From the NCBI GenBank assembly GCA_024642775.1, contig JAHEAL010000001.1, positions 92,586 through 156,585 on the forward strand: DNA of 64,000 nucleotides. The letters run 5' to 3'. The DNA is from Nitrosomonadales bacterium. Its GTDB lineage: Bacteria; Pseudomonadota; Gammaproteobacteria; Burkholderiales; Methylophilaceae. Shown here piece by piece: positions 53,420-54,406 of this stretch. Both the position numbers and the translations under genes were made by a program. Each line of letters begins with the position of its first letter. The stretch's first letter is position 1. The notes below the pieces were generated by a model, which was not told where the DNA came from, did not search any database, and saw nothing but the letters and a program-made list of their open reading frames with translations.

Positions 53420-53447
53420 TTGAAAAAAATACAAATCCACGTATAAT
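53420..53447 (+). promoter_or_regulatory. Sigma70 promoter for the rpsF operon
   Basis: TTGAAA (53420-53425), 16-nt spacer, TATAAT (53442-53447). Confidence 0.78.
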
Positions 53448-53460
53448 CTACCTTTTTTAA

Positions 53461-53504
53461 TCCTTGCTTCACTGAATATTTTCAGGAAGCTTTAACCGTA
53501 AGGA
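53461..53504 (+). promoter_or_regulatory. S6:S18-binding-type ribosomal protein leader upstream of rpsF
   Basis: Outer stem TCCTT(53461-53465)/AAGGA(53500-53504); upper stem GCTTC-A-CTGAA / TTCAG-GAAGC with TATT loop (53466-53490); 3'-side bulge TTTAACCGT carrying the diagnostic CCG; outer stem includes the SD. Confidence 0.8.
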
Positions 53505-53510
53505 GAATAT

Positions 53511-53897
53511 ATGCGTCACTATGAAGTAGTGTTTATCGTTCATCCAGATCAAAGCGAACAGGTTCCTGCAATGATTGAACGTTACCAAACTCTTTTAAAA
53601 ACCAATTCTGGAAACATCCACCGACTTGAAGACTGGGGCAGAAGGCAGCTCGCTTACCCAATCCAAAAGATTCACAAGGCACATTACGTATTAATGAATA
53701 TTGAGTGTGATCAAAAAACTCTTGAAGAATTAGAAACATCATTTAAATTCAATGATGCGGTTCTAAGACATCTTACTTTCGCAACTAAGGGTCCGGTTTC
53801 ATCACCGTCACCTATGATGAAAGAAGAAAAGTCTAAAACGATTGTTGGCGACAAAGAAGTTGCTGAAACCGTTAACGAGGAAGTTAGTGAATCTTGA
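53511..53897 (+). CDS. rpsF: 30S ribosomal protein S6
   Basis: [52 protein letters not shown]. Confidence 0.98.
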
Positions 53898-54169
53898 ATC
53901 AGTTAATTCTTGATGGTACTGTTGTTGATTTAGATGAGATAAGATTTACCCCAGCACAGATTCCCGTAAGAAATTTTAAGATTCATTTTAAAGATTTAAC
54001 AAAATTAACATTACACAAACATGTTGAATTTGAAATTAATGCACTAATGGTTGGTGATTTAACTAAAAAAGAAATTAAAGAACAAATGCTTTATAAATTT
54101 CATGGTTTTTTAGATAGACGGTCACAAAAATCCAATCAGATTATTTTTCATGTTCAGGAATATATTTAA
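53894..54169 (+). CDS. priB: Primosomal replication protein N (TTG start)
   Basis: Single OB-fold size, between rpsF and rps[28 protein letters not shown]. Confidence 0.87.
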
Positions 54170-54178
54170 GGAGCTAAA

Positions 54179-54406
54179 ATGGCTAGAGATATGTATAGAA
54201 GAAGAAGGTACTGTCGCTTTTCGGCAGAAGGCATCAAAGAAGTTGATTACAAAGATGTAGACCTTTTAAAAGATTTTATTGTTGAGAATGGAAAAATTAT
54301 TCCAGCTCGTATTACGGGTACAAAAGCAAGGTACCAAAGACAATTAACCACTGCTGTGAAGCGTGCTCGATTTTTAGCACTTCTTCCATACACAGATAAG
54401 CACTAA
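54179..54406 (+). CDS. rpsR: 30S ribosomal protein S18
   Basis: [56 protein letters not shown]. Confidence 0.99.

Follow-up and report, generated by a model that had tools for sequence, protein, structure and literature searches.

An rpsF leader in a Methylophilaceae genome that very probably belongs to the S6:S18 autoregulatory family

Introduction

In Escherichia coli, fourfold repression of an rpsF-lacZ fusion requires the joint expression of the ribosomal proteins S6 and S18 (Babina et al. 2015, PMC4647458). The repression is lost or reduced upon mutation of the 5' strand of the outer stem of the mRNA leader (H1), of the adjoining stem H2 or of two cytosines (the M4 mutant), and these cytosines match positions C719-C720 of 16S rRNA, which are contacted by residues K60 and R63 of S18 (PMC4647458). 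The putative Shine-Dalgarno sequence has been placed within H1 in the E. coli model, and loss of the native transcript has been reported besides the translational repression (PMC4647458). The leader is represented in Rfam as RpsF_leader (RF02893). The site of S6:S18 on 16S rRNA, in the helix 23a region, shares with the leader the two cytosines read by S18 but is part of an rRNA and is not a regulator.

Here, we analyze a stretch of 64,000 nucleotides (the window) from a Nitrosomonadales bacterium (contig JAHEAL010000001.1 of assembly GCA_024642775.1), in which an earlier note, made from the sequence letters, had proposed an S6:S18 leader in front of rpsF. With the E. coli leader (RF02893; PMC4647458) this locus shares the operon, the position, an H1 stem that pairs the Shine-Dalgarno sequence, H2, a 3' internal loop whose CC lies two bases ahead of H1, and the contact residues of S18. 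It differs from the E. coli leader in a shorter apical arm, a bulged A at the junction of H2 and H3, an H1 that is one U-A pair longer (a trait of the genus) and a score under the Rfam cut-off. All sequence features of the E. coli system are present in the window, and the same mechanism is therefore the best reading. The leader is real and conserved, and its mechanism is an already published one, not a new one.

Results

Structure of the leader

A two-part hairpin occupies positions 53461-53504, immediately 5' of rpsF, within the 118-base gap that separates the end of uvrB (53392) from the start of rpsF (53511); its sequence and coordinates agree with those of the earlier note (Table 1). Minimum-free-energy folding returns exactly the structure drawn there, consisting of H1, H2, the bulged A and H3, at -16.3 kcal/mol. 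This energy is unexceptional (z -1.61; 18 of 200 shuffled leaders are equally stable), and the raw folding energy, unconvincing by itself at such a z value, has been set aside as evidence for the leader. When the combination of H1, H2, CCNN and, close to the start codon, the 3' strand of H1 is scored, the value obtained for the window is equalled in 3 of 2000 dinucleotide shuffles.

Table 1. Features of the rpsF leader, its promoter region and the operon, in window coordinates
Feature	Position	Strand	Support or remark
Promoter-like TTGAAA-16-TATAAT	53420..53447	+	11/12 matches; TATAAT-like box at constant distance from leader in genus relatives
H1 5' strand UCCUU, partner of Shine-Dalgarno	53461..53465	+	core CCUU invariant in 48 non-genus leaders
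H2 5' strand GCUUC	53466..53470	+	compensatory changes among relatives
Bulged A between H2 and H3	53471	+	A in 97/101 distinct leaders
H3 apical hairpin CUGAA-UAUU-UUCAG	53472..53485	+	folding and alignment of relatives
H3 strands CUGAA and UUCAG, loop UAUU	53472-53476 with 53481-53485	+	
H2 3' strand GAAGC	53486..53490	+	compensatory changes among relatives
3' internal loop UUUAACCGU, one-sided, nine bases	53491..53499	+	CCG at 53496-53498
CC, invariant core of 3' internal loop	53496-53497	+	relatives; E. coli M4 mutant (PMC4647458)
G53498, third base of CCG	53498	+	variable, mostly A in relatives
H1 3' strand AAGGA, rpsF Shine-Dalgarno	53500..53504	+	6 nt before start codon
rpsF, ribosomal protein S6 (bS6)	53511..53897	+	PF01250 E 5e-32
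priB, TTG start overlapping rpsF stop	53894..54169	+	PF22657 E 1.8e-18
rpsR, ribosomal protein S18 (bS18)	54179..54406	+	PF01084 E 2.9e-25
rplI, ribosomal protein L9	54418..54870	+	PF01281 and PF03948

Operon and promoter

The hairpin heads the gene series rpsF-priB-rpsR-rplI, and the leader thus lies directly upstream of rpsF with rpsR in the same operon. The next genes after rplI are dnaB and alr, and uvrB precedes the leader (all three named from their translations). The stop of rpsF and the start of priB overlap in TTGA (53894-53897), an arrangement that is the same in the relatives L002-L008 and that suits translational coupling. In four members of the genus (L012, L013, L014 and L023, from genomes G009, G028, G002 and G004, respectively), priB is absent between rpsF and rpsR and the rpsF leader is retained; no match to priB was found elsewhere in these four genomes, the assemblies of which are incomplete.

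The promoter suggested just upstream of the leader is present as described, with 13 bases between its -10 box and the hairpin. A TATAAT-like box and a TTGA(A/T)(A/T) -35 box are retained in all 23 genus members, and the distance from the TATAAT-like box to the CCTT of the leader is 12-16 bases in 22 of them; the shorter value obtained for L024 is a parsing artefact. The predicted transcription start coincides with the T-rich ACCTTTTTTAA (53450-53460), and most genus members have a T-rich stretch at the same place. The Shine-Dalgarno sequence might also be taken up by the upstream CCUUU (53451-53455), in competition with H1. No terminator-like sites were found in the leader region.

Conservation and covariation

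Of 130 rpsF leaders from the family and order, 127 match a descriptor of the arrangement (H1, H2, CCNN and the H1 3' strand), versus 40 of 650 shuffled leaders. This comparison slightly favours the real leaders, for which the search covered up to 120 bases as against 93 for the shuffles, and it includes a handful of real leaders matched in the wrong register. The pair counts relied on here come from a plain MAFFT alignment (A1) of 48 leaders from outside the genus of the window, in which the rows were chosen and their 5' ends set by a pair-seeking parse that leans towards pairing, and the columns were aligned by MAFFT. In A2, a MAFFT alignment restricted to the genus, the short stems were misplaced, and no pair counts were taken from it. 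On the 48 leaders, RNAalifold yields the same 12 pairs as in the window; 99.5% of the cells are paired, two-sided (compensatory) changes are found in 7 of the 8 H2/H3 pairs, and the covariation score is 0.390, whereas shuffles score 0.135 and sliding of the pairing partners leaves no more than 0.076.

Covariation, which the earlier note had named as a check, is present in H2 and H3, and H1 is almost invariant: among the 48 non-genus leaders it does not vary and accordingly displays no compensatory change. H1 is conserved but lacks covariation support because its sequence hardly varies; within the genus, it undergoes G-U exchanges that preserve the pairing. The claim that the outer stem takes up the Shine-Dalgarno sequence is borne out by a pairing that is present in the window and whose core is kept in nearly all parsed relatives, although as an idea it is not new, being part of the published E. 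coli model (PMC4647458). The outermost U-A pair (53461/53504) is mainly a feature of the window's genus, where 18 of the 20 distinct leaders have it, versus 24 of 101 overall.

Several relatives depart from this layout. In L028, L031 and L034, H2 and the CC core are apparently separated by an extra hairpin, which makes the loop branched, and these leaders are possibly a structural variant of the S6:S18 leader. Three members of the order (L043, L049 and L050) keep CCA and the Shine-Dalgarno sequence with no clear H1 or H2, and their leader may have been lost or rebuilt. The apical loop contains CGCA in 47 of the 101 distinct leaders and in none from the genus of the window.

The constant core of the internal loop

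The signature attributed to the internal loop was CCG, of which CC turned out to be the constant core, found in every leader inspected, and the G did not hold: among 101 distinct leaders, 96 have A after CC and 5 have G, which puts the window in the minority, its closest relatives mostly having CCA (CCAT in L002, CCAA in L004). Loss of the CCG in close relatives, which had been named as evidence against the leader, is hence observed for the G but not for CC, the part that, according to the E. coli mutants, matters for repression (PMC4647458).

The 16S rRNA of the genus relatives carries the two cytosines that match C719-C720, except in G007, where the site (G007:C1:894381-894403) reads UC rather than CC and the mRNA leader has CCG. 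The 16S rRNA of the window organism itself is absent from its assembly. The possibility that the 16S site dictates whether the mRNA motif is CCG or CCA was rejected, since many Burkholderiales have CCG in the rRNA yet CCA in the mRNA; at its third base the mRNA does not mirror the rRNA.

Family membership

The Rfam model RF02893, proposed earlier as a check, aligns with the leader end to end (positions 1-85) but assigns it only 14.1 bits, against a gathering cut-off of 37. This cut-off is passed by none of the 61 relatives searched and, among 14 control genomes, only by E. coli (110.1 bits), and even at E <= 1 the model fails to recognize another 19 rpsF leaders from the order. RF02893 appears to be too narrow and was dropped as a membership test across relatives; a score below its cut-off consequently counts only weakly against membership.

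Scored with R1, a covariance model built from the 48 leaders outside the genus, the window reaches 53.1 bits (E 2.2e-15), and this is the single real match in the whole genome, the next best scoring 15.4 bits. At 23.6 bits (E 1.7e-6 over 4.5 kb), R1 also recovers the E. coli leader of the lacZ experiments, including CCG and H1. Across the class, 101 of 143 genomes contain a match to R1, and rpsF is immediately downstream at all of the 30 best loci of this class-wide search. On the protein side, alignment equates K61, R62 and R64 of the window S18 with K60, R61 and R63 of the E. coli protein; these residues, together with Y23 and K24 of S18 and the RQLAYP loop of S6, are counted among those needed for repression and are identical in the two organisms.

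The gene context, the structure, the genus-independent covariance model and the conserved S18 contact residues thus point to the identity originally suggested, and the leader of the window is very probably an S6:S18 autoregulatory rpsF leader, a new example of a published kind. A narrower reading, which we entertain only tentatively, is that it belongs to a compact Methylophilales/Burkholderiales subtype missed by Rfam, with protein contacts that would differ in detail from those of E. coli; such a subtype would be characterized by the bulged A, the short arm, the CCA core and, in some members, the extra loop hairpin.

Discussion

For the window organism, we infer S6:S18 binding, repression and coupling of the following form. 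Whenever S6:S18 is in surplus over its uptake by 16S rRNA, the heterodimer would bind the internal loop beside H2, with S18 contacting the two cytosines that mimic C719-C720; binding would stabilize H1 and keep the rpsF Shine-Dalgarno sequence paired, initiation would be blocked, and priB, rpsR and rplI would follow via translational coupling and mRNA decay. In the isolated RNA at 37 C, the predicted occupancy of H1 is 0.41-0.50 if transcription starts at 53449-53451 and 0.73-0.87 if it starts at 53453 or later. As H1 is predicted to form to this extent in the isolated RNA, S6:S18 binding would stabilize this stem, not create it.

The last step might also proceed differently, with S6:S18 bound at its site and repression caused mainly by steric hindrance, ribosome entrapment or mRNA decay instead of a Shine-Dalgarno sequence hidden in H1; the family assignment is untouched by this alternative, which concerns that step only. 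The partial occupancy of H1 in many relatives (predicted median 0.195), the lack of covariation in this stem and the transcript loss that accompanies translational repression in E. coli (PMC4647458) all speak for it. Nevertheless, the CCUU of the 5' strand is invariant in the 48 non-genus leaders with no other evident reason, and the E. coli mutant M2, in which the H1 5' strand alone is changed, nearly abolishes repression, an effect read by its authors as lost protein binding (PMC4647458). On balance, we regard this alternative as rather unlikely. Far less probable is a general hairpin that tunes the basal translation of rpsF and does not bind S6:S18. Plain hairpins near a start codon can have such an effect, and the folding energy of the leader is by itself unexceptional, but the unpaired CC of the 3' linker is constant in relatives while the stems covary, and the element is found only at rpsF. 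The probability that the leader is a transcription attenuator or folds by chance is negligible: the equal stability of some shuffled leaders would favour such a reading, but the conservation, the covariation and the R1 score contradict it, and no terminator-like site was found in the region.

The constant core of the S6:S18 leader is CC rather than CCG, and the Rfam model misses essentially all of the Burkholderiales members tested, which a broader model would annotate. Judging from sequence comparison, the published S6:S18 feedback switch would extend to a small-genome relative of the Methylophilales.
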